A stretch of 64,000 nucleotides of DNA from Melampsora larici-populina 98AG31. Lineage: Eukaryota; Basidiomycota; Pucciniomycetes; Pucciniales; Melampsoraceae. Under the pieces are notes generated by a model. The model was not told the DNA's origin, searched no databases, and worked only from the letters and a program-made list of their open reading frames with translations. A program made the translations under genes and the position numbers. The stretch is from NCBI RefSeq assembly GCF_000204055.1, contig NW_006768775.1, forward strand, positions 584,815-648,814. Reading direction: 5' to 3'. Shown here one piece after another: positions 14,606-39,956 of the stretch (the first letter of the stretch is position 1; each line of letters opens with the position of its first letter).

Positions 14606-14710
14606 GTAAGTGTAGAGAGCCGAGAAACCTGAAGGGCCCAGTAGAAGGCCCCCCCTCCCTCCTTTCTCTCTTGTACCTATGATGCGCGAATAGATGAGAT
14701 ACATAGTGAA

Positions 14711-16717: not shown

Positions 16718-17786
16718 ACACTTAGTGAAGGGGGCCTGGACAGAAAACACGAAGAAAAGTTACAACAGCGCAATTCAAAAGTTCAAGGCTTATGTAGAGA
16801 GTACAGGTAGAGAATTCATTTACGAGAACCCAATGACGGAAGAGGACGTATATGGGTTCGTGGTTTGGGCAGGGCCGTCGGAAGTCGAGAAGAAGTCAGG
16901 TCCGTTGAGAGAAATTAAGGCGAAGACAGTAGAAAAGTACTTGGCAGGTCTGAAGGCGTGGCACGTGGCAAAGCACCTCACCCAACCAAAGCTAGACAAA
17001 CAACTAATAGACTGGCTGTTGAGATCGTCGGAAAGGAGCAAAGAGAAAAAAGCGATGACAGGAGGAAGAGAGAAAAAACCGATAAAGGTCCAACAGCTAT
17101 TCGAGATGATGGCAGGATTGAACGGGAAGTCGAAGACGCACGACCTAGCGATGACAATAGCGGTGTGCGCATTCTGGGGAATGGCGCGGCTCGGCGAACT
17201 CATAAGGGGAACGATAGAGGAAGGAGCCATAAAGCTAGAGGACGTGAGTTTCGAAGAATCACCGCGGGGTAGGACAGCGAAGCTGAGACTATGGAAGGCC
17301 AAGACGGCCAAACCGGGTGAAGTACAGGTCATAAAGTAAGAAACGGTGTCTAAAACAGAGAAGGAACAGTAGCTAACGTCCGTTTTGTTGGGCGATTACA
17401 GATTGGTCAAACAGAAGTCAGTCCTAGACCCGGTAGCAGTTCTAGAGAAATGGATCAAAGCAGAGCACCCGAACAAGAACGGAAAGGAGATGCTGTTCTC
17501 ATACTTAGAAGACGGGGAACGTCAAACCATATCGAAAATGCGATTCACGAAGATAATGGAGAGCATATGGGGTAGTCACGGAGTAGGGAAAGGCGAATGG
17601 TCAGGCCACTCGTTCAGAGTAGGAGGAGCCTCTTTAAGGATGAATCTCGGATGGAACAAGGAAAAAATAATGAAAGCGGGACACTGGAGATCGAACGCAA
17701 TAGACGTGTATTTAAAAGATTTCAGAGAGGAAGAGAAAGAGGAGACAAAAGAGTTTCTGTGGCTAATAGACAGGAGAAATAGATGA
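16647..17786 (+). CDS. Tyrosine recombinase of the Ngaro element
   Basis: Two exons, 16647-17335 and 17402-17786, joined by a 66-bp intron with GTAAGA, branch GCTAAC and TTACAG; the frame is kept. The N-terminal core-binding region (SYNSAIQKFKAYVE) precedes the catalytic domain. Catalytic set visible: Arg in ARLGEL, His and Arg in HSFRVGGAS, His in AGHWRS, and the nucleophile Tyr in AIDVYLKDF. This enzyme integrates the circular DNA intermediate by strand exchange rather than by DDE integration, which explains the absence of target duplications. It begins inside the RT frame in another register. Apparently intact. Confidence 0.85.
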
Positions 17787-19944: not shown

Positions 19945-20083
19945 AGCTGCCACAATGGTTATTATCCGCCAAACTCTGTAACAAGGTTAAGCAGTACACT
20001 GTTTCTGATGTTTTTCAATCAACCCCAGTTACACAAGAATTTATCAGCAATTTGATGATATGAATTTAAGGAAAAGAAAACTG
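19945..20083 (+). repeat. Left copy of a flanking direct repeat (target-derived)
   Basis: GCTGCCACAATGGTTATTAT... through ...TTTATCAGCAATTTG closely matches 39687-39796 beyond the right end of the KDZ element, in the same orientation. Its last eight bases, GAAAACTG (20076-20083), are the left target-site duplication. The KDZ element therefore inserted next to or within a pair of tandem units. Confidence 0.7.
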
Positions 20084-20302
20084 CACCTGTAGCGCCTAGA
20101 CTTCACGACTAGTATCCGGAAGAAAATGAAACATTTTGGTCGGATAAAAGCCGATGTTCCCTATGAAAACTGCCGACGCGTCCGACTAGTCGGGCGCCAG
20201 ATTTTTTTCAAGTTTTTTTGGGCAAGTCCTCTCCTCAGACGCGTCCGACACCACTGTTTTCCCTCCAAGTCCATACACCTCACATGAACTTCACAAGTTC
20301 AC
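20084..20302 (+). repeat. Left terminal inverted repeat of the KDZ element
   Basis: About 219 bp, matching the reverse complement of 39465-39682 with scattered differences. By eye it contains some 14 CpG dinucleotides, including two GACGCGTCCGAC boxes and GTCGGGCGCC, in an otherwise CpG-poor neighbourhood. Confidence 0.9.
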
Positions 20303-20563
20303 TAAACTTCAAATCCTACCTAAGATCGAACTACACAGAGTTCACACATCAAGATTGACTTCACAAGAAGACATAAGACACATAACATACCCCCACTGAA
20401 AATTTACCCCAACGAACGAATTCCCTCCCAAAGATCGAATTTCACAAACCAGTCAACAACTTCACCAATTCACAACTCACAAGTCTTGAGGAAGCAAAGA
20501 TTCACAAACTCACCCCTTCACATAACTCGATCTCCTCTATACACTCGATACCCACTTCACACC

Positions 20564-23314
20564 ATGGACAACCACATACCCCAAAACCCCCATCAATCCG
20601 ATTCAAACTACATCCCAATTGACAAAGAAGGAAATCCTTTACTTCAAATACCACCCACTGGAACTTTCATCAAAGACCTCGAAGCCATGTACGACTACAT
20701 CGACCCTCTTACGATCCCTCATGGATACAAGTTGTCTGTTCTAGACTCACGCTACTTCCCGATCGATGCGTACATCGACTTCAAGTGTTACAAAGGGCCG
20801 ACTCGTCATGCAAGATCACCAGGAGACTGTCCATTTTCTGCTCAAGCAGATTGAAAATCTATCAAGGATTCATGGATACTCACCATCAAAAATCCATATC
20901 ACAATCACCCAAAATCTACTACCAAACTATCTTATCATCGACCAAAGAAGACCAGAACACCAAAATCGATAACAACTGAAACTGAACCCACTATCAATCC
21001 AACCAACCAAACCAAGACCCTTCCTCTTTCAAAACGATACTCCGATATCATTAGGCGCATGAAGACCCTTGGGGAAACAATGCAAACTTCCCTCCTCGAT
21101 CGTCTCGAAGAACAGCTCATCATTGCAGAGACGGATGCAATCACAAATGAACATTTGGAGAAAGAAGCACAAGACATAATCAAAATGGAATCAAGAATGC
21201 AGGATCTCCAGAAAGAAGACTTGAAAATCCGAATCAAACTTCCAAAGAAAGCATCCACACCTATCGATCCTACCGAGACACTTCCACACCAACAGCCCCC
21301 GAAGGTGGCTATCGAAGTAGATCAGGCCAAAACTGATGCATTGATGCCTTCAAAGGTGAGTTCATTTGATCATTCACTTAATAAATGGACAATAAACTGA
21401 TCAATTAATAATTGATTTTTTGTAATACCTCAAGACTCACATCGCATCCAAGACTCACATCGCATCACCATTTCCAGCCAGCCCCCCTCCTGCTTCACTG
21501 ATACCACCAGACTTGAACTTCCAGAAACCTGCCGAACCACCGATGTCAACACCTCCTCCTCTTAATTTTGAAGCTGAAGACGATGACAATGAAGGAGACC
21601 ATTTTGAGACCCCAAACGAACATTTTCCCATCATCCCCACTTTACATGGAAGCATGCAAAACCAACTATCGCCAATTATCGAAAGACGTGTTCATGAAGA
21701 ACCTTTGGGCGCAATCGAGGTCCCAAAAGATCAGCCGGAACCCCCTTTGAAACCAGTCGAATCACCACAGTACAAACAAGAAAATGACTTACCTGCTCCT
21801 TTGACCAAAAAGCGGAACACACAAAAATTAGGCAAAAAAGTAGGCAAAGGTCCTTCCAAGAAAGCTCAAGAACAAAAACAACTCAAGAACTCAACCAACC
21901 TTCCTCTCCACGAGCCTACTTCCAAGAAGCAGAAGAACAAGACTCCCATCGATCAAGTCACTCTTAATGCCCTTCAGGACAAGGAAAAATCGAAAGAGCA
22001 ACTTAAGCCCCCTATTATAACTCGATCCAAGAAACGCACTCAAGGCCAAGACTCCATTCAAAATCCCAAAGTACCTACAGTTTCTCTTCCTCCAACCAAG
22101 AAGCCCAAAAAAAGGAAATCCCAGGAAACCATGGTCATTCCTACCCGTTCCTCTACTCGAATTAAACGCCTCCTTACCACCCCGGATGACTCCTCTAACA
22201 ACACCTTGGCTAATAAGGCATCGGTTAATCAATCACCGAGCAAATCAATCCAATCGAACATTCATGAAGAATCAAGTAGAGTTAACTCCAAGACTCAAAA
22301 GAAGTTATGTCCTTGAGCTGAAAATTTGCCAACCAAAACTCCTCCTCCAATTGTAAGTCCTTAATACCCATTCTTATAAAGTTTCAAGCATGAGACCTTA
22401 TTAATTGCTTAATATGTACCTTCATCATTACAGACCGAAACCGAAAATCATCCTGAAAATGATTCGGCTCAAGTGGACCCATCTATCCAGGTATGTTATG
22501 TTGGTCAGGCTACTTTACAACAACAGAATCCTACACTAACTATACTTGAACTGTACATTGCTCATAGTCTCTACCTTATATCGATGACATTCCCTCCTAC
22601 CTGTACCCATTCTTACGGAATGTTACAGATGTCCCACCCGATGGCCTTTGCGCATTTTCTTCTATCGCAGTTTCTCTGGGTCGTACACCGGATCAAGCAA
22701 CCACCATCCGTAGCGAGCTTGAACACGAGGTTTTAACCCGATATGATTGGTATGAGAAACACACACCCACTTTCTGTATCAATTACGATGTCAAAAGGAT
22801 TCTTGCAATACTACAAAACCCAGAAGACTCGGCCGGCCGAGACCTTTGGTTACCGATGCCAGGTGCCACAACAATCATTGCGAATACTTACCAGCAACCG
22901 GTCATCTTCTACACGAATAATCTCGCAGCAACCATGCATACCCTTCCTTTCTTTTCGCCTCTCCCCTCCGATATCCACCCTATCATCATCGCGCATGTGG
23001 CAGGCGTTCCTTATGTCTCCCTTGACGTAGCCATCGACGAATCATTACCTATACCTCACCCAAATCCCGAGTGGTATCATTTACATGATTCATGCGCAGA
23101 TGGTTGGGATGGCTTATATTGCTCAAATGTGGCGGTTTTTGCTAAATTAGCAAAGGCTAGTAGGGAAGCAAGAAAGACCCAGTGGGCCCAAAGTCGTGCA
23201 GGTTTACCCGAACCCGATGCGATATCCCTGGCCTCCACGGAGGAAACAAATGATGATACAAATCAAGAGGTAGAAGATGATCAAGATGAAGATAGTTTTA
23301 GCTTCCACTCTTAA
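20564..23314 (+). CDS. FAR1-like zinc finger plus OTU-like cysteine protease, accessory gene of the KDZ element (two in-frame TGA)
   Basis: Exons 20564-21355, 21435-22352, 22434-22490 and 22568-23314; phases agree, 838 codons. Residues about 75-115 hold a FAR1/WRKY-GCM1-type zinc site (FKC..., DCPFSA, W-I-L-T-I, HNHP), a DNA-binding fold often met in transposons. A coiled, acidic then Lys/Pro-rich linker follows. From about residue 610 there is an OTU-like protease signature: DVPPDGLCAFSSIA with Cys 617 as presumed nucleophile and WYHLHD as a possible His region. OTU enzymes cleave ubiquitin or similar chains, or process proteins; the substrate here is unknown. In-frame TGA codons at 20852 (codon 97) and 22314 (codon 558) break it, while the frame stays coding on both sides. 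A TATA-like start region was not obvious. Confidence 0.65.
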
Positions 23315-23439
23315 CCTTCCATGTATGTTGATATATATATGAATGTTAAGCAACCTCCTCAAACATGTAGGATTCCAATATCCCGATGCGAAAACTGTTT
23401 CCTTTCACAATAGTAAAGACGTGAATATGAAAATTTCGG

Positions 23440-25960
23440 TAAACTAGATGCATGACTTGTCATTCACAATGTAATGTGAATGACAAGTTCAAATTCGAGT
23501 TCACATTGAAACCTTCAAATGTGAACAATATACAAAGCTGAGTTGTGAACATTTCGGAGTTCACATTGAATTCTGAACTAAATAAGTTTTGTGAACTTCC
23601 TTCACTTACAATTATTTGTGAACTTCTCAAGAGCAACAAATAATTGTTAAAACTTATATGTCTGAATTTTTTTCAAAGGAAAGGTATCACTCTCAGTTCT
23701 TATTTCAAGTATTTTGATCATTGTGAACCCAATATGTAGTTCAAACTCCAACTCGCCATGCTCAGATTGAAAGTTAGCTGTAGTTCACAATATGTAGTTC
23801 ACAACGGGTTTTGAAAGACATAAAAAGGTCACATTGAATCTTCTAATTTCTATGTAGTTCACATTAAGTATTTCGCAATGCTCGGTATTTCAAATAACAA
23901 AGAAAGAAGTTCAATCTTTGTTAACTACATAAAAAGCATAAGAAATGCGATCTTTGCATGGAGGTCAGAATCAGTTGTGAACTGGCAGTTCACAATCGGT
24001 TGTGAACTGCTAATTGTTGTAAACTGCAAATTCACAACTGATTGTGAATTACCAAGTACACAATGCAGTTCACAAAGAATCAGTTGTGAACTGGCAGTTC
24101 ACAATCAGTTCACAACTGATTGTGAACTGCTAATTTTTGTAAATTAGCAGTTCACAACTAATTGTGAACTGCATATTCACAATGCTTTGTGAACCCATCA
24201 AAAGGTTCACAACTGATTGTGAACTTAGAATTAGGAGCAGTTCACCATCAGTGGTGAACTATCTATGTAGTTCACTTTGCGAATCACATAAGTTCATAAG
24301 TTCACAACTAACTACATAGACTGCAAACCTCCCATTGTGAACTGCTCGAATTCGAAGTTCAAGTTCAAAACTGACGAATCACATAAGTTCATAAGTTCAC
24401 AACTAACTACATAGACTGCAAACCTCCCATTGTGAACTGCTCGAATTCGAAGTTCAAGTTCAAAACTGAAATTGTGAACTAGCTCGATGAGCCTATGGTC
24501 CTCAGAATCTGTTCTGAATTCAGCATTTAGTTTGTAGTTAGTTTCTGACTGAACTGCCCAAATTGAAAGTTTGCAACCTTCCATTTCGATTTTAGGAATT
24601 CTGAAAGTTCAATAATTTTTCTTAACTACCAAAAAACACTGGGATATTTGATTGTGATCTTTGCATGCAGTTCACAATTGGTTGTGAACTGCCAATTCAG
24701 AATTTGCCAATTTCATACTGATTGTGAACTTAGATTTGAGTTCACACTATTCACAGTCAGTTGTGAACTGTAGTTTCAGTCTTAATTCTGCATGTTTAGC
24801 ATATAAGTTCATAAGTTCACAACTAAAGCTCACAACCCATTTTGAACTGGTCAAATTCATGATCTAGTTCACAACTGAAATTGTGACCTAGCTCTATGTG
24901 GTCGAAATCAAAAGTCATCAACCTATGGTGGACCTCACCATAGGTTTTGAAGTCAGGATGTAGTTTGTAGTTAGTTTGTGATGGGCCCAAAATAAAAGTT
25001 CACAAATTTATCATCAAGTTGTGAAGTTCCGAATTTAGTCAATAATTGTGAACTGACAAAATGAGCCGATGATCAAAAGTGAACTCTCTATCCAAATTTG
25101 ACCTATCTATCCAGTTTACCATCAGTTGTGAACTCAGTCTATAGGTAGTAATTACAACTTGCTTCATAGGTAGTTTTGAACTTTCAAGAAAGTTCACAAG
25201 TGCCTATCAGAAAGTTCATATCGAATTGTGAACTTTCAATATGTTCACATTTACTTGGGAAAACTTTGATTTGGATGTGCACAATTTTGAACTTCCAAAT
25301 CAAACTGATAATCTCATCTTAAAACTCAATTCGGCTCACAATGAGTTGTGAACTCAGTATGTAGTTTGTAATTGAAAGTTCACAACTTTCAAGAAAGGCA
25401 GTTGTGAACTTTCAAGAAGGTTCACAACTTGCTTTCTTGGAAGTTGTGAACTTTGCCGCTCACAACCGCTCACAATGAGTTGTGAACTCAGTATGTAGTT
25501 TGTAAATTCTTGAAAGTTCACAACTTTCTGCATAGGTAGTTGTGAACTTTCATCAAAGTTCACCAATTGCTTCGTAGGTAGTTGTGAACTTTCTGCATAG
25601 GTAGTTGTGAAGTTTCAAGAAAGTTCACAACTTGGTTCATAGGTAGTTGTGAACTTTCAAGTAACTTCACAACTATCTATGCGGAAATTTCTTAGCAAAT
25701 TGTGAACTTTCAATATCTTCACTTTCAGTTGGGTACCCCCTTTGGAAGTTCACAATTGTGAACCTCCAAATCAAACTGATAATCTCATCTCAAACTCAAA
25801 ACTCAAAGCGGCTCACAACCGCTCACAATGAGTGGCTCACAATGAGTTGTGAACTCAGTATGTAGTTTGTAATGTGAACTGCTCATATTGAAAGATCACA
25901 TCTGACTTTATTCACAGATCGCTTTGTTTGGTGAACTTATCATGTATTCATGGAATCGTT
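23440..25960. repeat. Dense array of TTGTGAAC / GTTCACAA motifs
   Basis: The 8-mers GTTCACAA and TTGTGAAC (often extended to AGTTCACAA or TTGTGAACT) recur every 20-60 bp in both orientations, frequently paired into palindromes such as GTTCACAACTGATTGTGAAC. It contains an exact-looking duplication of about 92 bp (24288-24379 and 24380-24471). No coding frame is supported. CpG is sparse. The same motif fills 35150-36110, 38940-39470 and part of 20280-20540, always inside the KDZ element. Confidence 0.85.
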
Positions 25961-26254
25961 TGTGATGGATATATTTAGTTCAAGATGAATTGGGGACTAC
26001 TCAGATGGCAAAAATAGCATGGTGAGCTACTTGGAGCTAATGATTCATTCTAGTATAGTATTCTTTCTATTGGTCTCCACCAATAAGTCCAGATTAAATA
26101 GGGAACTAGGATCGAACAATTGGATTATAAGCTGAAAGAAACAAAAGTATAATAGAATGGGATCAAAGTAAAAGTAGTAGAATAGATTGGGATCTTTTTG
26201 ATATAATGTAATATGTTCTTGATATAAGATCAATGAAATGCAACTGAGGTAAAT
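25961..26254. other. 3' flank of the TET/JBP gene
   Basis: AT-rich, no gene; probably holds the 3' untranslated region of the minus-strand dioxygenase gene. Confidence 0.4.
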
Positions 26255-27515
26255 CTAGAAATCATTTCGCCATATGCCTAACTTGATAGCCAATTTCTTC
26301 ATCTTGAGATGAGCTTGTTCCGCATAACCAGTCAAAACCCTTGCTTGATATGCTTGTCCTTCGCTTTCACTCATCGCCTCTTGCTGGATTTTGACTTTCT
26401 CAAGGCGGTTGACCAATGCCTGGGAGATTTGACAAGAGCAACCGAAACGTGTGATTTCGGCCGACTCTGGTTGGACTTGTTCCTTCAATGCATTGTAAGT
26501 TTTGGAGCGCGAAGTGTGATGATGGACTTGAGAGTTCCACAACATTTCAACTACTCCATCGGAAGAATCCAAATCGACCTCTAGGTTGTAGTCATCAAGC
26601 ACGAAGCGAGCCCCAATACAGTTCCCTCGTGAAGCTGTATCACCTCGCAAGTATAGCTCACCCGTACCCCGGTTGATTAAAGTAAACAAACCAAAGGCAT
26701 ATTTGGATGCATCTTTATCTTTGTGTTTTTTATTGGTAAATTCATCAAAGGTAACTACAATGTTCGAGCCAAAGACCTTGGAGTTGGGTGAAACATAGAA
26801 GGATTCGCTTGCCCAAGAAGGGGCATTCGTTCGACTGGCAAGGGCAGCATTAGACTCGAAGGCGTATAAGGAAAGGCCACTGAATCTCTCAGCGAAGAAG
26901 GATTCGATAGCGGGCAGGTTACCCTGTCTTTTCAGGTCGGCCTCCATCTTCCAGAGGTCATTTGCAGTCGTGGCATTCCAAGTATAGTGACCTAAGGAAA
27001 AGTCATGTGAGTGATGTTCTTTTATTCTTAATCTTGGGTCAGCCAGACTGACCTCCTTTGACCTCCGTATCATAACCAGGACGAAAACCGGCAGCAAACA
27101 TTCGACCATATTTGCGACCGAGTCTCCTTGCCCGGTAGGTAGCTCCATTATTTTTCACTTCGCCTCTAGCTTTGGCATGCTGGTAGATCGTGCTGATTGA
27201 ATGATTATAAGCATTGTAAATCTCCTCGGAGACACTCCCCTTCTCTACAAATCGTACAACCAGCAGTAGCTCAGATGTATCATAATCAAGACAAACAACT
27301 GTGCCATATGTTAAACTGAAGCGAGGCTTCCCATAACTTCGTCCCTTCCGAAAAAACAGGAACTTCGAGTCCATGGGGAGACCGTAGAGACTGATGAGAT
27401 TGGCCTTTTGAATAGCTCGTTGATTGGGTGGAGGTTTGGATGGACGTTCAAGGTGCTTCTGGAGTGATCGATTAAGACGGGATTGTAGGGTAGCTGGTGA
27501 CTTGTACTTGGGCAT
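26255..27515 (-). CDS. TET/JBP-family 2-oxoglutarate and Fe(II)-dependent dioxygenase, 399 aa
   Basis: Exons 27053-27515 and 26255-26991, intron GTCAGT..CCTTAG; 1200 nt, intact. The family oxidises the methyl group of 5-methylcytosine (or of thymine in JBP) in DNA. What I see: a basic N-terminus, a conserved block around residues 40-150 (RKGRSYGKPR, YRARRLGRKYGRMF), then the double-stranded beta-helix. The HxD iron motif is H244-K-D246 in FTNKKHKDKDASKYAFGL, the distal His lies in VHHHT (311-313), and the 2OG-binding Arg is probably R336 in ITRFGCS. SSDGVVEMLWNS before the distal His is characteristic of fungal TET proteins. It lies antisense to the other genes of the transposon. It is the only one of the four without an in-frame stop. 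Confidence 0.85.
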
Positions 27516-29028
27516 GGTAAAGATGGAGAACTTGATGAAGTGTGAAAAATATGATGAATACGAATGGGATGTTTGAATAATACTGAATGATTACGATGAG
27601 ATAAAACAATTGAAGAGGGGTTCGAAAAGCTGATAGAATGAGACTAGGATACTATAAGATCACTGGAAGAATATCTTTGATATGTTGCAGTCGATTCCAA
27701 TAAGGCGATAGAAATTAACCACCACTTCCTCCTATTAACAACTCAGGCTAACAATCTTATTAGACTCCCTTTCTAGCTTCTGAATTATGCGTCGCGATGA
27801 TCCAAGGTCCGAAGCATGCAAAGGAAGTCTTATAAGGTGTTCACTGGTCAGAAGATAGAAAGGTAGTTATTCACCAAAGCCAAATCGATGGAATGATATG
27901 TGGGATGGATATTTTGCGATCGAACCCTGGGGAATATATGTATTTCGAAGAGACATAACCGTGTGTCTTTTGGTCATTCAATCAAAAGTTCTGTTTCCTT
28001 TTCCTACAAAGTCCACATTCTGAATTGAATTGCCTAGACGAAATTTCTCACCCGTATATCATTTTCCTATTATAGTATAGGACACACCCTGAATACTTAA
28101 TAGGACTATATATCTATATAGTACAGGATACTCTCACAAGTTCTCACAAGTGTTTGTGAGAGTATTGATTCCATCACCCAATTGATTCCATCATGAGAGT
28201 ATTGATTCCATCACCCAACCTGTATGACAATAGGATCGAAAGCGATACCATTAGTATTTAAACACGAAATGGTTTGGAAGGGGTTTTGAACCACCCCTTC
28301 CGAACCATTTCGTGTTTCCACTTCCGTCGAAGTGATACTGATGCTGAAACCTGAAGCTCAATTGCCATTGAGCGCTGTACTTCGGACAGTCGGAATTGTA
28401 TTGGACAGCTGTCAGAGTCTCTCAAGGGACTCCCAAATGAAACTGGAGCAACCAACCCAGAGTTAACCCCTTCTGCGATTGGCATCCTGGAATTTCCACC
28501 ATACATATATATTGGAAAGTATTTTGTTGAACTCTGGTTTCACATTGATCATCTTTAATGTCCTGAATGATTTATCAAGGTCAACTATTATTTCGTATCT
28601 ACAGGGGTAGATACATTATTCACATGTTCAACATATGTAGAGTAATACTCAAGATACAATATTGTCATGTTCAACACGTGTAGAATAATACTCATTTTGA
28701 TCAACCAGGATGAAAAGTTCTGGTTGATACACAAAACCTTTGCTCATAGGAGGGTTGGTTGCAGTGGTAGTTGAGACAGAGACCATTAGCTCTTTAAATA
28801 TTTGCAATATTTAAGCTAAATAAAAATATTATGATAAGCATGAACTAATTGTTGCGGTATATATATGCTCACTTGAATTAAAGACTTCATTTGGTCAAAA
28901 CTTGGGCAGAGATATCATTTGATCATTTTGTAAGATTTTTCAGCGATGGGTACATCACCCCCATGAACCCAGAAGTGCTTTGGCATGAGGTTTGAAAGAG
29001 TTACTAAGATATATGTGCTAATTGCAGG
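27516..29028. other. Intergenic region inside the KDZ element
   Basis: Likely contains the promoter of the dioxygenase gene (upstream of 27515). The repeated phrase ATTGATTCCATCA occurs near 28165, 28183 and 28204. An 82-codon minus frame at 28258-28506 overlaps a hairpin and has no support. Confidence 0.45.
28259..28316. repeat. Near-perfect hairpin, about 25-bp stem
   Basis: AAACACGAAATGGTTTGGAA at 28260 is mirrored by TTCCGAACCATTTCGTGTTT ending near 28316, with a loop of a few bases and one G/T-type mismatch. It could be a small fold-back repeat or a strong RNA stem. Confidence 0.7.
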
Positions 29029-29090
29029 GGTAAGTGCTTCCAACTGCAAATTTTTAAGATGTGGAAAATTTGCAGTTGGAAGCACTTACC
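29029..29090. repeat. Hairpin with 26-bp stem and about 9-nt loop
   Basis: GGTAAGTGCTTCCAACTGCA (29029 on) is the reverse complement of TGCAGTTGGAAGCACTTACC (ending 29090). The stem looks perfect by eye. It sits immediately before the 182-bp tandem array. Confidence 0.8.
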
Positions 29091-29101
29091 TGAGTGTGGT
29101 A

Positions 29102-30425
29102 CCAGGGTTAATTGGCCCCAGAAACATTTCTCAACACTCAGATCTACAATATGATGAGTGTGGACAAAGATATTTACAAATATGTGCTATTTGTTAATAT
29201 AAGTGTGTACAACTTATATTAACAACAGGTGTACAACACTTGGTCAAGAATATCACTTGACCACATTGAACATGGTGATGTCCCAGTGGTAATAACCCCC
29301 CAGGAACATCGATCAACACTCAGAACTACAATATGATGAGTGTGGACAAAGATATTTACAAATATGTGCTATTTGTTAATATAAGTGTGTACAACTTATA
29401 TTAACAACAGGTGTACAACACTTGGTCAAGAATATCACTTGACCACATTGAACATGGTGATGTCCCAGTGGTAATAACCCCCCAGGAACATCTATCAACA
29501 CTCAGAAGTCCAATATGATGAGTGTGGAAAAAGATATTAACAAATATGTGCTATTTGCACATATAAGTGTGTACTTTAGTCAAATACTACACTTGTACAA
29601 GACTTGGTCAATAAGGTCACTTGAGCACATTGAAAATGGTGATGTCCCAGGGGTAATAACCCCCCAGGAATATTTATCAACACTCAGAACTCCAATATGA
29701 TGAGTGTGGAAAAAGATATTAACAAATATGTGCTATTTGCACATATAAGTGTGTTCTTTAGTCAAATACTACACGTGTACATCACTTGGTCAATAAGGTC
29801 ACTTGAGCACATTGAAAATGGTGATCTCCCAGGGGTAATAACCCCCCAGGAATATTTATCAACACTCAGAACTCCAATATGATGAGTGTGGAAAAAGACA
29901 TGAACAAATATGTGCTATTTGCACATATAAGTGTGTACTTTAGTCAAATACTACACTTGTACAACACTTGGTCAATAAGGTCACTTGAGCACATTGAAAA
30001 TGGTGATCTCCCAGGGGTAATAACCCCCCAGGAACATTTATCAACACTCAGAACTCCAATATGATGAGTGTGGAAAAAGATATTAATAAGTATGTGCTAT
30101 TTGCAAATATAAGTGTGTACTTGAGTCAAATACTACACTTGTACAACATTTGGTCAATAAGGTCACTTGAGCCCATTGAAAATGGTGATCTCCCAGGGGT
30201 AATAACCCCCCAGGAACATTTATCAACACTCAGAACTCCAATATGATGAGTGTGGAAAAAGATATTAACAAATATGTGCTATTTGCAAATATAAGTGTGT
30301 ACTTGAGTATTCAACTCAAGTAACACTGACTTGATCAAGAATATCACTTGAACAAATATTATAAAAGTGTGGTCCCAGGTTACATTGACACCTAGTTACA
30401 TTTATCAACACTCAGAAGTCCAATT
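29102..30425 (+). repeat. Tandem array of a 182-bp unit, about seven copies
   Basis: Unit starts marked by ATGATGAGTGTGGA lie at about 29152, 29333, 29515, 29697, 29879, 30061 and 30243, so the period is 181-183 bp. Middle copies are nearly identical; the outer ones diverge. Each unit contains a 61-codon frame, but 182 is not a multiple of three and there is no splice logic, so coding is unlikely. Conserved words include GGTAATAACCCCCCAGGAA and TCAACACTCAGAA. Confidence 0.9.
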
Positions 30426-31382
30426 TGAAGAGTGTTGAAAAAGACATTAAGGAAAAAGAAATGCTATTTGCACGGGTCTGTCTGCATTTGAGTCAAATAC
30501 TACACAAGAACTATAACCTGTACATTAGACCACATTGAACACAATTAGACCACATTGAACACATGACTGTAGTTCAATGTTTTCAATTACAATTAATTGT
30601 AAGACCTATGATTGAAATTGAGACTGGTAAGAACCTAGTCTCTCAATCACAATCAATTCTAACACGTATGATTTTAATTGAGACTGTCCACTTTGGGCTC
30701 CATACTATGGGGCCCAGTTTTTACTCTTATAAATTTAATAGAGACTGTGCACTATGGGAGCCTTCATAGTATGGGTGTTTGCCTCGTTGAGACATAAAGT
30801 GGGCAAATTAGTCCATTAGTCTGAAAACACTGGGTGGACCCCTGCGCTGGCCCGTGCCAACTGATTATTGCCATTCTTGTTTATTTTCCCAGATTGGAAC
30901 AACATCTTGCCATATGAGATCATCATATCGTAGTTTGGAGAATCATTTACCTTTCAAAGAAAAGGAGGTGGTGATAGTACAGTGATCTCACTATGGGTAA
31001 TTATTTGATCTGTAGTCACAGGTGAAGCAGACCAATAGTTCACCTGTATGACTGGACTCAAATCGAAGCCCAATGGGGTACAATCACAATGTGACAGTAC
31101 GCAATCAATAGAGGATTAGAAATACTGCACTCAATTTGAAGACCAATTGGGTACTGTCACCTACTGTCACCATCTGACAGCACCCAATTGATCATATCAA
31201 ATTGATATCTTCACACTAATGAGAAATATTGACGAATTGGGCATATGAGCCTAAAATCATTACCGTCTGAAGTGCTTTGGACTCTGGTTAACCCAGATGA
31301 GTAATTTTGGACTCCGACAATTACAAACCGCCCTCAAATACCTTTTTACTTCAGACAACTCACTCGTTCAAGTCATCCAGCC
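30426..31382. other. Upstream region of the KDZ transposase gene
   Basis: No gene. Contains partial repeats (ATTAGACCACATTGAACACA twice near 30530-30562) and several short palindromes near 31010-31200. Probable promoter of the transposase. Confidence 0.45.
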
Positions 31383-34300
31383 ATGGGTGGAAGAAAAGGG
31401 AGATCTATAGGATGTCCTTTAGGTCCTTCTTCCAAAAAAAGAAGACAACCAGAGCCACAAGGTTCCAGCCAGATCATTGCAGATTTGGATGCCAGCGAGG
31501 CACGTTGGGTCGACCAGCAGTCTCAACGCTTGAACAACCGACCAGTGGCGCCTAACACTGCAATGCAACATGAACAACTACAGCCTTCAACTTCCGACCA
31601 AGTCGAACATGCTTTTGAATGGGACCAGATTTCCGATATCAATCCAGAGGAAGAATATCTCATCAATCACAATATCCCAGACGACCCCACTGAAGAGCCA
31701 CCTGAAGTTACTAACTTTGGTGACTACGTGAAAGGATCATCATACAAACGAAAACAAATCAAAGAGGCCAGGAATTGGGCCAAGGTCTTTGGGCCAATGT
31801 TCCTCGAATTCATGGTAGGTTCCAAGCGCACCACTCAATGGGGGCTAGAAACCTGGAACCAGGATTATAACAAGTCTTGTGCTTGTGGACCTGGGAAACA
31901 TCGAATGAGAAAAGTAGACATGGTGGACCATACAAGTAATCTCGAATTTCATTGCACCATTTCCTTGCTTATTTATACCACTCATGCTGACTTTGAACAG
32001 CTCGTATGCAGCAGACAATTGAATTTTGTGACTGTATCCCAGACCAAGTGAGGCTGATACGGATGGGATACATTGGAGGATCTCCAATTCATCCGGAAAC
32101 TGCTTTTTCAATCAGGCTCTTGAGGCTTCACCATAGTCTATGGAAATATTGCTCACTTCGAACTCAGGGCTTCTCACTTGGCCTTGATGAGTTCTTGGAT
32201 TCAGCCAACCCACTCATTTTGGTCGCCAGTTCAAGTGAGGTAAGTCATTTTCCTGTCATTCATTAAAAGTTTATTAATCCTTTTAACTATCAATACCCAT
32301 CACATCAGCCTCGAAGGTGGAGACGCCCTTTATCATTAGCTATAGATGCATACAGACAAATGGTTCGATACGAGGAAGAGTTGACAATACGTGCACTAGG
32401 ACTTACAACCATGGAGAGGCTGGCCATGAATTGCCCCCGGTGTTTTGGACCTCTTCAAGATAACCCTGAGCCTGATGAGCCGGACTATATAGTATGTGTT
32501 GACGGCAACTTTCAGCATCGGAGACACAAGGCTGCAAGCCGGGAGTATGAAGAAGTGGGCATCAGGATTCCACCTCTATTCATTAAACCCGAGAAAGTTG
32601 AAGAATGGGAGCCAGTTAAGAATAAACATGTCATCCAAAATAACGTATGTTTCTTCTGAGATGAGACGTTTGCAGCTCCACCTCTGATTTCCCAGCTGAA
32701 ATCAGTGGAGTTCCTCAGGACCGATGCTCTGTGCAGCACACTGCAGCTGCAGATCAGCGAGGTGGCTCAACATGGAAAGCAGCCGATGAGACTGGCCTAA
32801 TTGGGATGGCCTGTCGACATGATCATGTCCTGAGTTTTGTTAATGTTGTTCAGAGTGGCGAACGGTGAGTTTCTGTTCAGATTTCACACTTCCAGCGCCT
32901 GATGAATATTGATGAAAAACTCAATCCAGGCAATACTACATACTATCTATGATTGATAAACTGTTGCACGAGACGGCTGAGCCAGGGAAACCTAGGAAAA
33001 GGGTTGGTATTTTGTATGATATTGGGTGTACTTTGGAAAAAAGCATCATGAAGGTACTGAGTATATCTTTGAACCAATTTCGAGTGGCCACTAATGTTTG
33101 CCACAATTCAGAATAAGATCTTTCAAGCCCAATGTGCAGAACGAGGCCTGAAGTTTGGAACCAGTGCGTTTCATGCCTTTGTTCATGAGTGGGGTTGTCA
33201 GCTGCGTTACAATCCCCGTATGAACAAAGGCTGGGGACGTTCAGATGGGGAAGGTTTGGAAAGAATATGGTCATACCTATCTCCTCTCGTTAGCCCACTG
33301 CGATATTCGACAAAGCAGCATCGGCTGGATGCTCTGCATTTAAAAGCGACTCATCGAAATGAAGTCACACGCACCAATGCAGGTGAGAAAGCTTTGTTTG
33401 CAATGACCTTAACACATCTGGAGTGAGCTGATTTGGTTTTGGTATCAGTGCGAGCATCTTGGATTAAAGTTAAAGAATCCGAGCAACTTCTCAACCAAGC
33501 GAACAACAAACTGAATGAACTTGAAGTAGAAAAACCTATCTACACATGTGAGTATTTTGCTGGGCAATGGGAGCGACAAAAGACGTGCCAGCTTGAAGCT
33601 ATGTCGAATATCACTTTAAAAAAGTTAGAGGAAAAGCTGGTTGAGCTACTTGACCAAGAAGAAAAGTTGAAAGAAGCTCAGTGAGTTTCCAATTTCAGGC
33701 AGTGTGAACATGAGAAACTGACAGTGGTAATGCATATTAGCACTGAACTTAAACGCCTACAGCGCAAAACTCGTAGAAATTGGACAGACAATGATGTGTT
33801 AGAGATGAGCACGCTCCCCGCTTCGATTGTGGTGATGGAGACTGCTGCCCAGAAAATGCGTGCAGAGTTAGGTGATCCAGAATTCCGGCGAATTAAACAG
33901 AACACAAGTAGGTCATTTGAACTTTGATGCAATCAAACAAGGGATATATTAATAATATGTGGTTTGATTTCATAGCGGACAAAGGGAAGGCCCTAATTCG
34001 AGTTAGGCTGGCCAAGACGAAACTTTATGAGGCCAAAGTAGGCATTGTGGAGGCTCAGAAACGGTGGGACAAATGCGGTTTGGGTGCATGGCACTTCCAT
34101 CAACCAAACCAATATATATCTGTTGACTCCTGGTTTGACGAACACTAGGTACATCCGTCCAGCAGAGCTTGAAGACTATGATGACGAAAAAACAACTCCA
34201 GTTCAGGCGGAAATGGACCACTTATAATGAACAAGCCACCCTGTATAATGACATCCGACCAGTCAGCAATCTCCCATGTCCAACTTTGGAGGAGGCGAAG

Positions 34301-35017
34301 GCACTGCCCTTTGAGGATTGTTTTTGGAATGTAGGCGCTCTATCTCATCCTTTGGAGATGTGGGCTAATGATCCAGGCACAAAGGATGGTATTCAAGCCT
34401 ACTTGCTGCAAAGGAGCTGTAAGGAAGAGCTTCGTCGTCTAGGTCGTGAATCACAGCAAATGACCCTTGCCGCGCTAAGAACAGAGGAGCAGATGCAAGA
34501 TCTGCTAAGGGTATGTAATAGTGGTACGTACTCTACTATCAAATGTCTGACAAAACATGAATATTTCTTGACCTTTCTTACGTCTCTTTCGGCAGAGTGG
34601 GAACCTGAGCATGGTGGGAAGGCCCTGATTGAAATGATCCAACCCGGGCAGCGAATATCCAAAGACATCTGGGAAGATTGTATCGATGTTTTGAAGGCAT
34701 TTCACAAGAATACGCTTCAACATCTTTGCCGAACATGGATGTCCTGGAGCTCATCGTTGGTTTGCCTCCTAAGGTACACCATCAAGTACACTCCAGTTGA
34801 TAGAGATTCTTTGGAAACAATAGTTATTCGTTGGCTAGGACTCATTGAGAGGACTAAAACGACTTGGTCAGAGCTTGTCAAGCTCAAAAGTTATGAAACT
34901 TCGGCTCTCGATGAACTGGATATCACTGAGCAGAATTTTCTGATTGGAGAGGATGTTGGGGAAGAACATGATATGTTGCTTGAACCTGATGATATTGAAG
35001 ATGAAGATTTTATATGA
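31383..35017 (+). CDS. KDZ-superfamily transposase, many exons, one in-frame TGA
   Basis: Exons 31383-31935, 32001-32239, 32309-32644, 32719-32864, 32930-33053, 33112-33382, 33449-33907, 33976-34077 and 34149-35017 (an extra intron near 34511-34597 is possible). The N-terminus is basic with a Cys-rich zinc-binding region (SCACGPGKHR, FCDCIP), followed by the KDZ hallmarks GGSPIHPETAFSIRLL, VCVDGNFQHRRH, DETGLIGMACRHD, VGILYDIGC, SAFHAFVHEWGCQ and SDGEGLERIWSYL. Candidate catalytic acids are Asp at 32501, Asp at 33018 and Glu/Asp of DGEGLER near 33244. The C-terminal third is a coiled, acidic domain. A TGA at 33681 interrupts the frame after the catalytic part, with coding continuing directly (VSNFRQCEHEK). 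It should cut and join the element ends. Confidence 0.82.
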
Positions 35018-36307
35018 CTCCACGTAATGAAATTACTCCACAAATCAACCTGCAAATGGTTATGAGCTTTGATCTAGGATTCACTGGGTAATATCAAGTG
35101 GTGAGCCAATTATTTACTTCACAACAATGCCTTTTAAAGTGAAGATGCATGTGTGAACTTGAGATCTAGTTCACAAGTGTTTGTGAAGTAGAACTATATC
35201 TGGGAAGGCATTGTGAACGAGACCCAGTTAGTTCACAAAGAGGTGTGAAGTGGATCTCAAGTTCACCAAACCAGATCACAAAAGTTTGTGAACTTCAAGG
35301 TCATGATGCATCAGAGATCTAGTTCACAATCATTTGTGAAGTAGACATCATCTGGGAAGGCTTTGTGAACTAGGGAGCCAGTTAGTTCACAAAGCGGTGT
35401 GAAGTGGATCTCAACTTCACCATTCCAGTTCACAAAAGTTTGTGAGATTCAAGGTCAGGATGCATTGGAGAACTAGTTCACAATCATTTGTGAAGTAGAT
35501 ATCCGTGAACTAACCGGGATAATTGTGAACCAGCGACCCGGTGTGTTCACCAAGAGGTGTGAGCTAGATCTGTAGTTCACCGAACCAGTTCACAAATGTT
35601 TGTGAACTAGATCTCAAGGTCATGAGTGAACAGAGATCTAGTTCACAAACATCTGTGAACTAGATATCCGTCAATTGGATCATTGTGAAGTTCAGATTGT
35701 GAAATTCACTTTCAGACTCAGTGATCCAGTTCAGCAAACCATCAGTGGTGAACTACATTTCAACTTCACAAATACTCTGTGAACCAGTTCGCATTTCATG
35801 GTTCACAAGATGTTGTGAGCTAGATCTCACTAGATAACCAGGTCACAATTTATAATGTACCAAGTTCAGACCTTTTTGTGAGCAGGACTTTGTGAAACTA
35901 CTTATGATCATTCGACCGAATTCTACTCAACTTTAAATTTTTGATGATGAGAAAGTTCACAAGGACTTTTTAACTTGTGATTTACAATTGTGAGCTATGA
36001 AACCTGAGAATCTGAATTGTGAAGTTGAGCAGCAGTTCACACAATCTATTGTGAACTTGAGATGTCATGAGAGTTTTGTGAGGTAGAAGAGTTCACAAAA
36101 TAATGATTTTTCGATGTTTCGATGTGGACATGTATGTGAACCGGCTTACCCATGTAAACTCCGAATGAGAGGAGGGTATTTCACAAGTCACTCATGTCTC
36201 TATCGATTTAAAGGCCACCCGTTCCGCCCCATCCCAGTTTGGTCACATACACAAACCTCATTCATCTTCACAAAACTTTATTCATCTCTTCTGTCATATC
36301 TCATATC
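35018..36307. repeat. Second TTGTGAA/TTCACAA motif array
   Basis: From about 35110 to 36100 the motifs TTGTGAACT and AGTTCACAA recur at short spacing in both orientations, also arranged in 170-190 bp higher-order units (compare AGATCTAGTTCACAA at 35161, 35327 and 35633). No coding frame. The last 200 bp before 36308 hold the presumed promoter of the HMG-like gene. Confidence 0.8.
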
Positions 36308-38436
36308 ATGTCGCGCACCACTCGTTCTGGTGCTAGAGTATCACCACCTCCCAAGGCAAGCTCAGGAACTCGAGTGGTGCGAGGCAATAAGTCCAAAGCT
36401 CTAGCAGGTCCAAGTAGGAGACCAACTAGAAAATCCAATCGAAGTACAAGTCACTCTTCCCGCAAAAAGAAGGCTCCTGTTCTCGAGACCGATCCGGTCG
36501 AGGTCGATAGTCAAAGTGAAGATGATTTACCGGATGATGAGGATATTTACAAAGAGTTGGAATCAGAGGATGAAGAATCCGATACTGCGGACGACTCCGA
36601 CAATGAAGTTATTGAAGCCTTGGCCAGAAGGCAACCGAAATCCAAAAAACACACCCGAACTGGAAGGAGCAATGCCAGAAGAGTCCCTCTGGATGAATCT
36701 CATGACGCCTCCCTTGCTAATGCTGAAGATGACCCGGACGACTTCACTAGACGCCTTGAAGCCCAGTTTGCCAAGAGCCCAACCAATCGACTGGAAAACC
36801 TGGATGTTGATGACGAGGTGCATGATAATTCAGTCCTGCCAACGGTTGAAAATTATAAAGGCCTAGTGAAGGAGTGGACAAGAAAGCGTATTACATCAGT
36901 TCAGGATTTGCAGAAAAAGGTGACCTCAGTTCCCCCCCATATCCTAACTGAAGCAAAAGCCATCAAGAAACTTTATAAACATCACAAGAGGATGCTGGCG
37001 ATGATGGGTAACATCACGACATATACCTTGGATAAAGCTTTGTAAATGATTTTTTTTTTCCGTAGTTGGACCAAACTGATATACGGTTATACGGTTAAAA
37101 TCATTCATTTAGGGGCGAGCTCGGAGGTACTCGGTTTCCTGATGCATATCGTCTTTGGTTGAAATTTTCCATTGAGGCTCGAAAACTGAAAAGTTAGTAC
37201 ATGTATTTATTTAGCAATATACTGTTTGATGCTGATCTTGTTTTTGCTACAATGGAATGGCAGTGCCCCGCAAATACCAGGCTGGAAAGGCATTAGGACA
37301 ACGAAACCGTAAGCTTGGTGCTGCCTGGAAAGCCCTGTCGGTGAATCAAAAGCGTGTGTTTCACCCGCGGGTCTTCTACACCTTGTCTGGCCTTCCTGCG
37401 CCAACTAGCGACTTCGACACTGATGATGAAGAAAATGGACCAACCGACTTGTCTCCTGACGAACGTGAGGAGCTTCAAGGGATATATGATGAGTCTGTGT
37501 GTTCTTCAAAGGTTCGCCAGGTGTATGCAAAGGCATCGAGTGGTATAACGGAAGGGTGAACAGTTCCCAAGTACAATCAACTATCATTGAAGTGCGTTGA
37601 GAAGCTGCATAATCAGGTACGTGTTGTGTAATGTTTGTTATTGTATTATATGTTATTCTATTATATCAAGCAAGTTCAGTTCTCATTTTCTTGCTTCCTA
37701 CCCTACAAGATTGAAAACGAGGCAAATCGTATGGACTTTGGGTACTATTTCCTTGCTTCTAGTACCCATCCTGCTACTGGAGGTGATTCTGCGGATCCAG
37801 GGTGGTGTAAGGAGTTTACGTCGAATGAAGAGTTGGCAGATTACGTGCGTATGAAGAGCAATTTCCCGACTATATTTGCTGCACAGACCCAAGGTATTTC
37901 CGTCGACAAAGTCATTGCTAGTGCAATTGGGAAAACAGAAAAAATGAAAATGAACTGTAAGCGTGTGGACCCTGGTGATAAGGTGAAGAGTGACTTGGCA
38001 GCATTGTTGAAATCTGATTTAGGTGAGTGGGGTGATTAACATTTCCTATGATGATGACTAACTATAACATTATTCTGCAGGGAAAGTGTTAAAATTTGTC
38101 CCACCAGGGTTTCCTCGTGGACCGGACCCAGGGAAGCTTTTGTTGGATAAGGGATGGAAGGTGAAGATCAAGCAGTTGCCTGGCTCTAGCCTACCCCCCG
38201 AAGTGTTGAAATTAGGCTTTAATGCAATGAACAGTCGCCGGTCGCTCTGGTTGAATGATCTCCAGGCTGGCCTATTTCGATTCGAGAAGATTCCCGAGGA
38301 CGAGGATGATGATTTGGATTACATGGTCACTGATCATCAGGAGGAACCATTGGAAAAAGATGAAGAGCTCACGGTTGGAATTGAGGAGGAACTAGAGTGG
38401 AATGGAATTGGTGAAGATGAGACTTATGAGGCTTAA
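36308..38436 (+). CDS. HMG-box-like accessory protein of the KDZ element (one in-frame TGA)
   Basis: Exons 36308-37041, 37113-37192, 37264-37616, 37710-38022 and 38081-38436; all phases agree, 612 codons. The N-terminal 180 residues are disordered, first basic (RRPTRKSNRSTSH) then acidic (DDLPDDEDIYKELESEDEE). Residues about 250-310 look like an HMG box: TRFPDAYRLWLKF, KLGAAWKALSVNQKRVF. A conserved-looking but unrecognised C-terminal domain follows (RMDFGYYFLASSTHPATGG, FVPPGFPRGPDPG) with an acidic tail. An HMG box would bend or bind DNA, plausibly helping transposition. A TGA at 37557 (codon 370) breaks the frame, with coding (TVPKYNQLSLK) continuing on the other side. Start chosen at MSRTTRSG, after an untranslated leader. 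Confidence 0.6.
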
Positions 38437-38900
38437 ATGTTTTTTCCTGCTCTCATCACTTTGGTTTTTTGGCTTTCTTGCCCAGTTTCTCTCTTTCTCA
38501 GGCTGCTCACTTTGGATCTTAGCGCTTTTCTTGTTACTTTAATGAGGGATCAAATTTATATGAAATGTGTCACAAGTATTATTTTGATAGTTGTGCAACT
38601 AAAGTGAGTACCATGTGTAAATGGTATCAGGTCTTACAAGTAAGTCTCTAAATTTCTCTATACTACATGGGGTAATGCATACCTGCAATCTAGAATTTAG
38701 AAATATATCAATCGTTTCACCAATGAAGATTGATCATTCAGGGATTCTCGATCAGTTGTTGATGGATTGTGGAAGCCTTTATAACCAAGATAGATACTAA
38801 AGGCGTTCTCTTTCTCTTGGATGTTATATTTCTTCATATCGAAGATTGGATCAATCAATGGGAAATTCGAGGTTCTTTTGAGGTGATCAAATTGTTGAGT
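38437..38900. other. Non-coding spacer inside the KDZ element
   Basis: AT-rich, no gene recognised; 3' flank of the HMG-like gene. Confidence 0.4.
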
Positions 38901-39464
38901 TGTGAATCTGGAGTTATATGAATGAAGGTGGTGAAGTAATCTTGACTAGTGTGAACAGTTGACTTTTGGGTGTGAACTGGTAACTTGGAGTGAGCGAGTG
39001 GGTGTTCTCGAGTTTTGTTGTGAACTGTTAACTGTTGAGTGTGAACTAACTCAAGTGAGTGAGTGAGTGAGTGGGTGTTCTCGAGTTTTGTTGTGAACTG
39101 TTCCTGTAGGTGTGAACTGTGGGGTTGAGTGTGAACTGTTAACTGTTGAGTGTGAACTAACTCAAGTGAGTGAGTGAGTGGGTGTTCTTGAGTTTTGTTG
39201 TGAACTGTTCCTGTAGGTGTGAACTGTTGGGTTGAGTGTGAACTGTTAACTGTTGAGTGTGAACTAACTCAAGTGAGTGAGTGTGTGGGTGTTCTCGAGT
39301 TTTGTTGTGAACTGTGCCTGATAGGTGTGAACTGGTAACTTGGGTGAGTGAGCAAGTTGGTGTTGTCGAGTTTTGATTGATTGTGAACTGTTCCTGGTAG
39401 GTGTGAACTGTTGACTGTGGTGTGTGAGCTGCACGGTCAACTTGGTCTCTGGTTATGAAAGCAG
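38901..39464. repeat. Subterminal tandem repeats adjoining the right TIR
   Basis: Units containing TTCTCGAGTTTTGTTGTGAA recur near 39005, 39076, 39184 and 39292, mixed with GTGAGTGAGTGAG and TGTGAACTGTTAACTGTTGA. The core is the same TTGTGAAC motif as in the internal arrays. These could be transposase or accessory-protein binding sites close to the terminus. Confidence 0.8.
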
Positions 39465-39682
39465 GTGAACTTGTGAAGTTCATGTGAGGTGTATGGACTT
39501 GGAGGGAAAACAGTGGTGTCGGACGCGTCTGAGGAGAAAACTTGCCCAAAAAACCTTGAAAAAATCTGGCGCCCGACTAGTCGGACGCGTCGGCGATTTT
39601 TATAGGGAACATCGGCTTTTATCCAATCAAAATGTCTCATTTTCTTTCGAATACTAGTCGTGAAGTCTAGGCGCTAGAGGTG
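39465..39682 (-). repeat. Right terminal inverted repeat of the KDZ element
   Basis: About 218 bp, the reverse complement of 20084-20302, CpG-dense. Followed at once by the right target duplication GAAAACTG (39683-39690). Confidence 0.9.
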
Positions 39683-39956
39683 GAAAACTGCCACAGCGGT
39701 TGTTATCCGTCAAAGTCTGCAACAAGATTAAACAGTACACTGTTTCTGATGTTTTTAATCAATCCCAGTCACATGAGAATTTATCAGCGATTTGTTTTGG
39801 TTTTTAGAATTGAATCTATCTTTTCATCTTGTGACAACTTGTCCTTTGCTCTGTGGCCGTCCTCCCTGGTTTTGTTCCTGTGTGTATGATCAAAAATGCA
39901 CAAATATTTTAGTATTACAAATAGGGCAGTGTTTGGGGTATGAATTCAGAAAGATG
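39683..39956 (+). repeat. Right copy of the flanking direct repeat and older target element
   Basis: 39687-39796 matches 19948-20055. The stretch 39827-39868 is an inverted copy of 19662-19705. Together they indicate an older repeated element into which the KDZ transposon inserted. Confidence 0.6.

Follow-up and report, generated by a model that had tools for sequence, protein, structure and literature searches.

A 64,000-nucleotide stretch of the genome of the rust fungus Melampsora larici-populina 98AG31, referred to here as the window, contains a KDZ transposon at positions 20084-39682. It is a true insertion with defined ends and flanking duplications. It carries four genes, coding for a protein with a zinc motif and an OTU-like domain (FAR1/AFT-OTU), a TET/JBP dioxygenase, the KDZ transposase and an HMG-like protein. 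The gene set recurs in other copies and bears the mark of purifying selection, and the intergenic gaps hold arrays of one short motif. Related elements carry arrays of different yet related motifs, and these arrays accompany close relatives of the OTU gene. The arrays are the new element of the finding; TET-carrying Dileera transposons with 8-bp duplications are known. Taken together the data suggest, at odds that we place a little short of even, that the element escapes methylation silencing by means of a zinc-finger-OTU protein on its own arrays and the TET enzyme acting there.

The transposon and its copies

The features of the element are given below in window coordinates, with the strand where one applies. 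Gene pieces are open reading frames (ORFs).

20076..20083, no strand: left copy of the target-site duplication, GAAAACTG, single in two paralogous empty sites
20084..20302, plus: left terminal inverted repeat, 219 bp, from the arm alignment; eight terminus matches in the genome, at five loci
20324..23314, plus: FAR1/AFT-like zinc motif and OTU gene, ORF pieces 20324-20854, 20855-21400, 21426-22316 and 22568-23314
22568-23314, plus: putative OTU domain, the last ORF piece of that gene
23498..25880, no strand: motif array A, AGTTCACA/TGTGAACT, in the gap that separates the 3' ends of OTU and TET, two convergent genes; same place in C40, C62 and C32
26256..27515, minus: predicted TET/JBP (2OG-FeII_Oxy_6) dioxygenase gene, exons 27515-27053 and 26991-26256, 399 codons, complete
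31383..35017, plus: KDZ transposase gene, from Pfam and the genome match; exon boundaries near the last splice (34510-34596) approximate
31383-31935, 32001-32239, 32309-32644, 32719-32864 and 32930-33053, plus: KDZ exons 1-5
33112-33382, 33449-33680, 33741-33907, 33976-34083 and 34149 onward, plus: KDZ exons 6-10
35152..36097, no strand: motif array B, lying between KDZ (3' end) and the HMG-like gene
36308..38436, plus: HMG-like gene, ORF pieces 36212-37045, 37236-37559, 37632-38039 and 38068-38436
end of exon 1, 37113-37192 and 37264 onward, plus: HMG-box-like stretch, spanning these pieces
38971..39409, no strand: subterminal motif array C, copies in the same orientation, beside the right end
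39465..39682, minus: right terminal inverted repeat, 218 bp, from the arm alignment
39683..39690, no strand: right copy of the target-site duplication, GAAAACTG, a perfect match to the left copy

The two arms align with 12 mismatches (10 of them transitions) and one gap. The insertion host is a dispersed repeat with tandem units of ~107 bp, diverged direct copies of which lie at window positions 19946-20053 and 39688-39794. In two diverged copies of this flanking repeat, one on C5 (L020) and one at 84.6 kb on C11 (L021), the contig that carries the window, the junction is uninterrupted and the site is present once; a third copy (L022) gave no sensible alignment at the junction. The two paralogous empty sites with a single site copy thus support a true insertion. 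An earlier reading of the letters (the sequence-only reading) had described inverted ends with a perfect 8-bp duplication, and both are borne out.

That reading had also taken the element to be single-copy. A terminus search of the genome (98.3 Mb, 243 contigs) gave eight matches at five loci, the window on C11 and others on C40, C62, C32 and C64, which rules this out. Both ends are present at three of these loci: C11 (19599 bp), C40 (17667 bp) and C62 (19036 bp). Their arms are 94%, 85% and 88.5% identical, respectively, and their 8-bp duplications all differ (GAAAACTG, ATGAATAG and CCTGTAAG). The C62 and C32 copies are 98.7% identical across 8.1 kb from the terminus and have different flanks, indicating that the family was copied fairly recently. 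Long stretches of N, possibly assembly gaps, lie in or beside two of the copies (C62:263508-270814; C64:451143-459185 and 473544-478899).

The gene order in the window is FAR1/AFT-OTU (plus), TET (minus), KDZ (plus) and HMG-like (plus). C40 has all four genes in the same order. C62 has the OTU, TET and HMG-like genes, with the place of KDZ reading N, and the C32 copy is cut off by the end of its contig after OTU, TET and part of KDZ. The sequence-only reading had proposed a search for further copies in which the gene set is the same and the 8-bp duplications differ, and such copies exist; the order is shared by C40, C62 and C32, while C64 gave no TET or OTU match and is considered below. These copies support the view that the four genes move together as a unit.

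The ratio of nonsynonymous to synonymous substitution rates (Ka/Ks) was 0.05-0.47 in 32 comparisons of the window with C40, C62 and C32, below 0.5 for every gene piece; Ks was 0.4-1.6, and the NG86 method used is imprecise at high Ks. The ratios were 0.05-0.10 for the TET ORF, 0.21-0.24 for the OTU domain, 0.17-0.47 for the other FAR1-OTU pieces, 0.05-0.24 for the KDZ pieces and 0.08-0.31 for the HMG-like pieces. By this measure pieces of all four genes are under purifying selection. Purifying selection and shared gene order argue against bystander genes, and that reading is disfavoured. The suggestion that the genes are a cargo set for rewriting chromatin or DNA methylation is partly supported, and the motif arrays sharpen it into a self-targeting model.

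The window copy itself is decayed. Two of its frames are broken, that of FAR1-OTU at 20854, a point that C40, C62 and C32 read through, and that of the HMG-like gene at 37559, which C40 and C62 read through; its TET gene is complete. The other copies carry frame interruptions of their own, none of them singled out. The two extra genes that had been proposed are real and conserved across copies, with broken frames in the window copy.

Linkage of the four genes was examined genome-wide. The genome gave at least 150 TET matches; these were entered with 150 of 207 KDZ, 147 of 150 OTU and 86 of 87 HMG-like matches, the remaining three OTU and one HMG-like matches being second pieces of genes already entered, and the linkage counts are lower bounds. 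Among the matches listed, and within 12 kb, TET lies near OTU in 60 of 150 cases (5.3 expected) and near KDZ in 36 of 150 (5.2), HMG near KDZ in 36 of 86 (3.0) and OTU near HMG in 11 of 147 (3.0). When searches with the focal KDZ and TET are included, 47 of the 404 listed clusters contain three or four gene kinds, in several orders, and thus the genes appear to be shared and recombined among many KDZ-linked clusters. Standalone matches (97 TET, 85 KDZ, 69 OTU and 31 HMG among those listed) reflect partly the scope of the list and partly the carriage of TET by other rust transposon classes, as described in the covered parts of Kojima 2025.

Motif arrays and the genes beside them

The commonest 8-mer of the element is AGTTCACA/TGTGAACT, with 82 copies, 81 of which lie outside gene spans. 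A second-order Markov model (Markov-2, 100 runs) gave a mean of 2.4 and a maximum of 6, and the 44.4 kb of the window outside the element contain no AGTTCACA. Some copies form dyads, AGTTCACA-N6-TGTGAACT; genome-wide, dyads of the form AGTTCACA-N(1-30)-TGTGAACT number at least 200, versus 4 for the reversed control. The word occurs 65 times in C40, 65 times in C62 and 45 times in C32, in the matching gaps, C32 ending before gap B. In gap A of C11 there are 49 copies of the exact 8-mer and 7 of its most frequent one-base neighbour, and in that of C40 there are 31 and 3, although the alignable gap DNA of these two copies is only ~60% alike.

More distant elements have other words in their arrays. 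The C48 element, with OTU on the plus, TET on the minus and KDZ on the plus strand, has a TET 71% identical to that of the window; its 18.9 kb hold 32 copies of ACTTCACA and 14 of AGTTCACA, sited 3' of OTU and 3' of KDZ. The C3 element, ordered OTU (minus), TET (plus), HMG (minus) and KDZ (plus), has 52 copies of ATTCACCC and two of AGTTCACA. The word that marks each family, its tag, is AGTTCACAA in the focal clade, ACTTCACAA in C48 and ATTCACCC in C3. At C20, which has TET and KDZ with a distant OTU, no word exceeds 8 copies in 14.2 kb; plain 19.6-kb stretches of the window reach 9 and 14. A test for the exact ends of the C48 element by 11-mer pairs found none, and it was uninformative since it also missed the known window ends, which contain a mismatch. 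Many AGTTCACA dyads are spread across 75 kb at C3:553395-628182, around a close OTU at C3:558569 and a TET at C3:568275.

The association of arrays with the OTU gene was assessed on the 3' side of the OTU domain, over 1.4-1.8 kb; the sample was 20 of the 61 close matches (E <=1e-30) plus 10 distant ones (~30% identical). An array was scored where one word occurred at least 6 times; shuffled maxima were 3-7. Arrays were found at 15 of the 20 close loci versus 1 of the 10 distant loci, and at a threshold of 8 the counts were 14 and 1. When C49:492500, which is mostly N, is excluded, the comparison is 15/19 versus 1/10 (Fisher p 0.001, relatedness of the loci ignored). The family motifs share TTCAC or TCCCAC half-sites (ACTTCACAA, GTTCACAAG, ACTTCACATC, ATTCACATAC, TCACCCATATGTGA, TCCCACATGTGGGA, TCACACAATTGTGA, CTTCACAC and others). 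At two related loci, L042 and L046, the tag is the palindromic TCCCACATGTGGGA, whose core word reaches 48 copies at each in less than 1.8 kb. The sole distant OTU locus with a repeated word is L053 (C32:835400-837125), with 10 copies of GGAGTGAA.

TET lies within 12 kb of 16 of the 20 close and 4 of the 10 distant OTU loci. Arrays were found at 13 of the 16 close loci with TET, 2 of the 4 close loci without it, 1 of the 4 distant loci with TET and none of the 6 distant loci without it. Eight TET genes that share 64-74% identity with the focal TET, and that have no OTU or KDZ among the matches listed up to 12 kb away, lack a TTCAC-type array in the 1.8 kb 3' of them, which disfavours TET as the sole cause. 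No array was found in 10 regions of five KDZ-HMG clusters without listed OTU or TET, and background tiles gave 0 of 25. These clusters, together with distant OTUs that lie near KDZ and lack arrays, disfavour KDZ or HMG as the sole cause. One of the TET genes without OTU (L077, C10:1078897-1080700) has 7 copies each of AGTTCGAA and ACTTCGAA on its 3' side, possibly another tag system, and AGTTCGAA occurs 5 times at C55 (L078).

Evidence for the gene assignments

The KDZ profile PF18758 matches the exon at 33073-33426 with 88.1 bits (cut-off 26.6), with a sub-threshold match on 32267-32659, and the genome match is at C11:617929. The KDZ transposase named in the sequence-only reading is thereby verified. 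The element has the transposase domain as well as the inverted ends and 8-bp duplications, at three loci with three different sites, that mark the KDZ class. Its placement in the Dileera subgroup is inferred from the listing of M. larici-populina in the covered parts of Kojima 2025.

The TET gene has two exons and no internal stops. It matches PF20515 with 131.1 bits (E 7e-38) in the Pfam scan, and precomputed annotation gives the same family in 20 of 20 relatives. The HxD motif and a downstream His, the latter judged by eye, are present in the window protein; in the alignment the first His is invariant in 14 of 14 proteins and Asp is found in at least 90%. The closest annotated relative, MELLADRAFT_61756 of 98AG31, is 99% identical across 56% of the window TET. 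The sequence-only reading was correct on an intact HxD TET/JBP gene between the same ends, and the product is a predicted 5-methylcytosine oxidiser.

The labels FAR1, OTU and HMG are tentative, being drawn from weak profile matches and conserved residues. The putative OTU domain is recognized by a G-x-C stretch, a later His, and OTUD5 as the best match in PDB, itself weak (E 0.02). Its Cys is present in 7 of 7 aligned proteins; its His is missing from the window copy and kept by the other six. The scanned pieces gave no Pfam OTU match, a comparison of the OTU with plasmid records gave no match, and a protein search with the domain returned one metagenomic relative, full-length relatives falling outside the length filter. 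For the zinc motif the best Pfam family is AFT in C3, C40 and the outside relatives; it is above cut-off in C3 (21.9 vs 21.6 bits) and in two of three outside relatives. At C20 the match is to FAR1, sub-threshold. A 615-aa hypothetical protein of Melampsora americana (DFH28DRAFT_1132990) is 54% identical to the C3 protein along the whole query part, so that in this species the zinc motif and the OTU part belong to a single predicted protein. The zinc fingers of FAR1/FHY3 and AFT proteins are of the WRKY-GCM1 type. Yeast Aft1 binds PyPuCACCCPu (PMC7509046, parts covered), and the TTCACCC of the C3 array contains CACCC, a likeness that is suggestive only.

The HMG box profile stays below its cut-off (HMG_box_2, 14.2 of 22.4 bits), and the gene is therefore named HMG-like only; its best PDB match is SSRP1 (E 0.051).

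Two observations concern the flanks. Directly right of the element, at 40166-40627 on the minus strand, is a DDE_3 transposase piece (PF13358, 52.5 bits; Tc1/mariner-like by eye). At 14645-17339 on the plus strand, a long ORF similar to reverse transcriptase/RNase H precedes another that resembles a tyrosine recombinase (both by eye); the stretch is purine-rich, with an AT skew of 0.32 at 12-16 kb.

Proposed mechanism, alternatives and known systems

A model can be outlined in which FAR1-OTU would bind the intergenic arrays of its own family, the predicted landing sites, and would bring or license TET there. TET would oxidise, and thereby remove, methylcytosine at the arrays, while the OTU domain might strip ubiquitin from a silencing factor or a histone and the HMG-like protein might bend or open the DNA. 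The outcome would be a self-limited demethylation. Since the motif is private to each family, each family would, on this proposal, demethylate mainly itself, sparing the host and giving no help to rivals. A broader claim is that rusts evolved addressed DNA demethylation independently of plants: a zinc-finger-OTU protein would read a family-private tag, repeated in the noncoding DNA of the element, and direct TET to it, and tag and reader would co-diverge, so that a single genome could house many families, each activating itself alone. We regard this as less likely than not.

Several points weigh against the self-targeting model. The array threshold of 6 was chosen after the counts were known, and some loci are related to one another (L033/L034, L042/L046, L043/L048) rather than independent. 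Five of the 20 close OTU loci, one of them mostly N, have no array in the stretch read; for the C57/C30 pair it may lie further off, as at C3:558569. One of the eight TET genes without OTU reaches the threshold, with a different kind of word. OTU class predicts arrays better than TET, yet OTU class and TET are confounded. Among the matches listed, only 6 of the 20 close loci, and 12 of all 61 close OTUs, have a KDZ no more than 12 kb away; the scope of the list accounts for part of this, but the module of OTU, TET and array may also be carried by transposons of other kinds. Checks of the FAR1 part cover C11, C40, C62, C32, C48 and C3 rather than the 20 sampled loci, and the zinc motif of the focal clade (C40) scores 14.1 bits for AFT, below the cut-off of 21.6. 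Distant OTU genes can carry a FAR1-like motif, as at C20, where there is no array; thus FAR1 alone does not predict arrays and is disfavoured as their cause. At C64 there is one terminus and, of the genes, only the HMG-like 3' end. Its readable part (10.3-24.6 kb of 30 kb; 13.4 kb N) matched neither TET nor OTU and showed no further terminus. TET and OTU were expected in the readable sequence, hence C64 appears truncated or rearranged. Finally, the covered parts of Kojima 2025 (PMC12730594) describe the function of transposon TETs as lacking experimental validation.

Other explanations of the arrays were weighed. They could be sites bound by the KDZ transposase or its HMG-like partner for synapsis or excision, TET, FAR1-OTU and the arrays having no common targeting role. 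Array C, beside the right end, fits this, and subterminal transposase sites are common in other superfamilies. Arrays A and B, however, lie 3.4-5.8 kb from the nearer end, no array was found in the regions of KDZ-HMG clusters for which neither OTU nor TET is listed, 9 of 10 distant OTU loci have no array though 9 of 10 lie near a KDZ match, and C20 has KDZ and TET without a frequent word; this explanation is unlikely. Alternatively the arrays could be enhancer or replication elements and FAR1-OTU an activator of the genes of its own element, with TET acting everywhere, untargeted. Their position in intergenic gaps speaks for such a role, as does the suggestion, in the covered parts of Kojima 2025 (PMC12730594), that Agaricomycete TETs modify many transposon classes without target specificity. 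Against it, two genes converge on gap A with their 3' ends, which is not where a promoter would usually be expected, and close OTUs go with TET, which is listed no more than 12 kb away for 39 of the 61. We regard it as rather unlikely.

The arrays might also be neutral tandem-repeat debris and the extra genes passengers. Some arrays do contain tandem units, slippage multiplies short words, and the lack of TET and OTU matches in C64 points the same way. What makes this very unlikely is the apparent purifying selection on pieces of all four genes, the persistence of the same motif in the same gaps while the DNA around it has diverged so far, and the related half-sites across otherwise different arrays.

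The self-targeting model has partial precedents. The papers compared here are cited for the parts covered. The TET-carrying Dileera of rusts (Zisupton-1_PGr and relatives; Kojima 2025, after Iyer et al. 2014) share with the window element the KDZ transposase, TET, 8-bp duplications and rust hosts, and Kojima 2025 (PMC12730594) lists M. larici-populina among these. The same paper puts forward the idea that transposon TETs counter silencing or hypermutation, and mentions Vandal in its introduction. Its main text is without the words OTU, HMG, FAR1, 'subterminal' and 'tandem repeat', and its covered parts contain no arrays or selection tests; the covered part of PMC12062965 does not mention OTU or HMG. 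In the open-licence literature, supplements not covered, nothing was found on motif arrays in elements of this kind or on OTU, HMG or FAR1 genes carried by them, and Iyer et al. 2014 may describe accessory genes. The novelty that the sequence-only reading saw in the complete structure with exact ends is reduced, since TET and KDZ with defined ends have been published (PMC12730594, parts covered); the motif arrays, which it did not mention and which are the least usual feature of the element, are more novel.

In Arabidopsis, VANC proteins of VANDAL transposons exert sequence-specific anti-silencing (Hosaka 2017, PMC5735166; Sasaki 2023, PMC10398659). As in that system, the motifs of the rust elements are family-specific, 8-9 bases long, densely placed in noncoding DNA and quick to turn over, and the element codes for a candidate DNA-binding protein. 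Unlike VANDAL, the rust elements belong to another transposon class and another kingdom, have their own predicted methylcytosine-oxidising enzyme and an OTU-like domain, and carry motifs in both orientations, many as dyads. The VANC domain DUF1985 is absent among the Pfam matches of the pieces scanned, so the rust system at most works like VANC. The above-cut-off AFT matches, in the C3 family and the two outside relatives, link the reader candidate to FAR1/FHY3 and AFT proteins; unlike these, the fungal zinc motif shares its predicted protein with an OTU-like domain, and a transposon carries the gene.

TET/JBP genes are numerous in fungal transposons, and the question is how a transposon-borne TET acts on its own element and not on the whole genome. 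Family-private tags that go with one class of encoded OTU proteins offer a concrete, testable answer. If true, this may be a second origin of sequence-specific anti-silencing; it would account for the persistence of numerous TET-carrying families in a single rust genome, and epigenome research would gain naturally matched DNA tags and readers.

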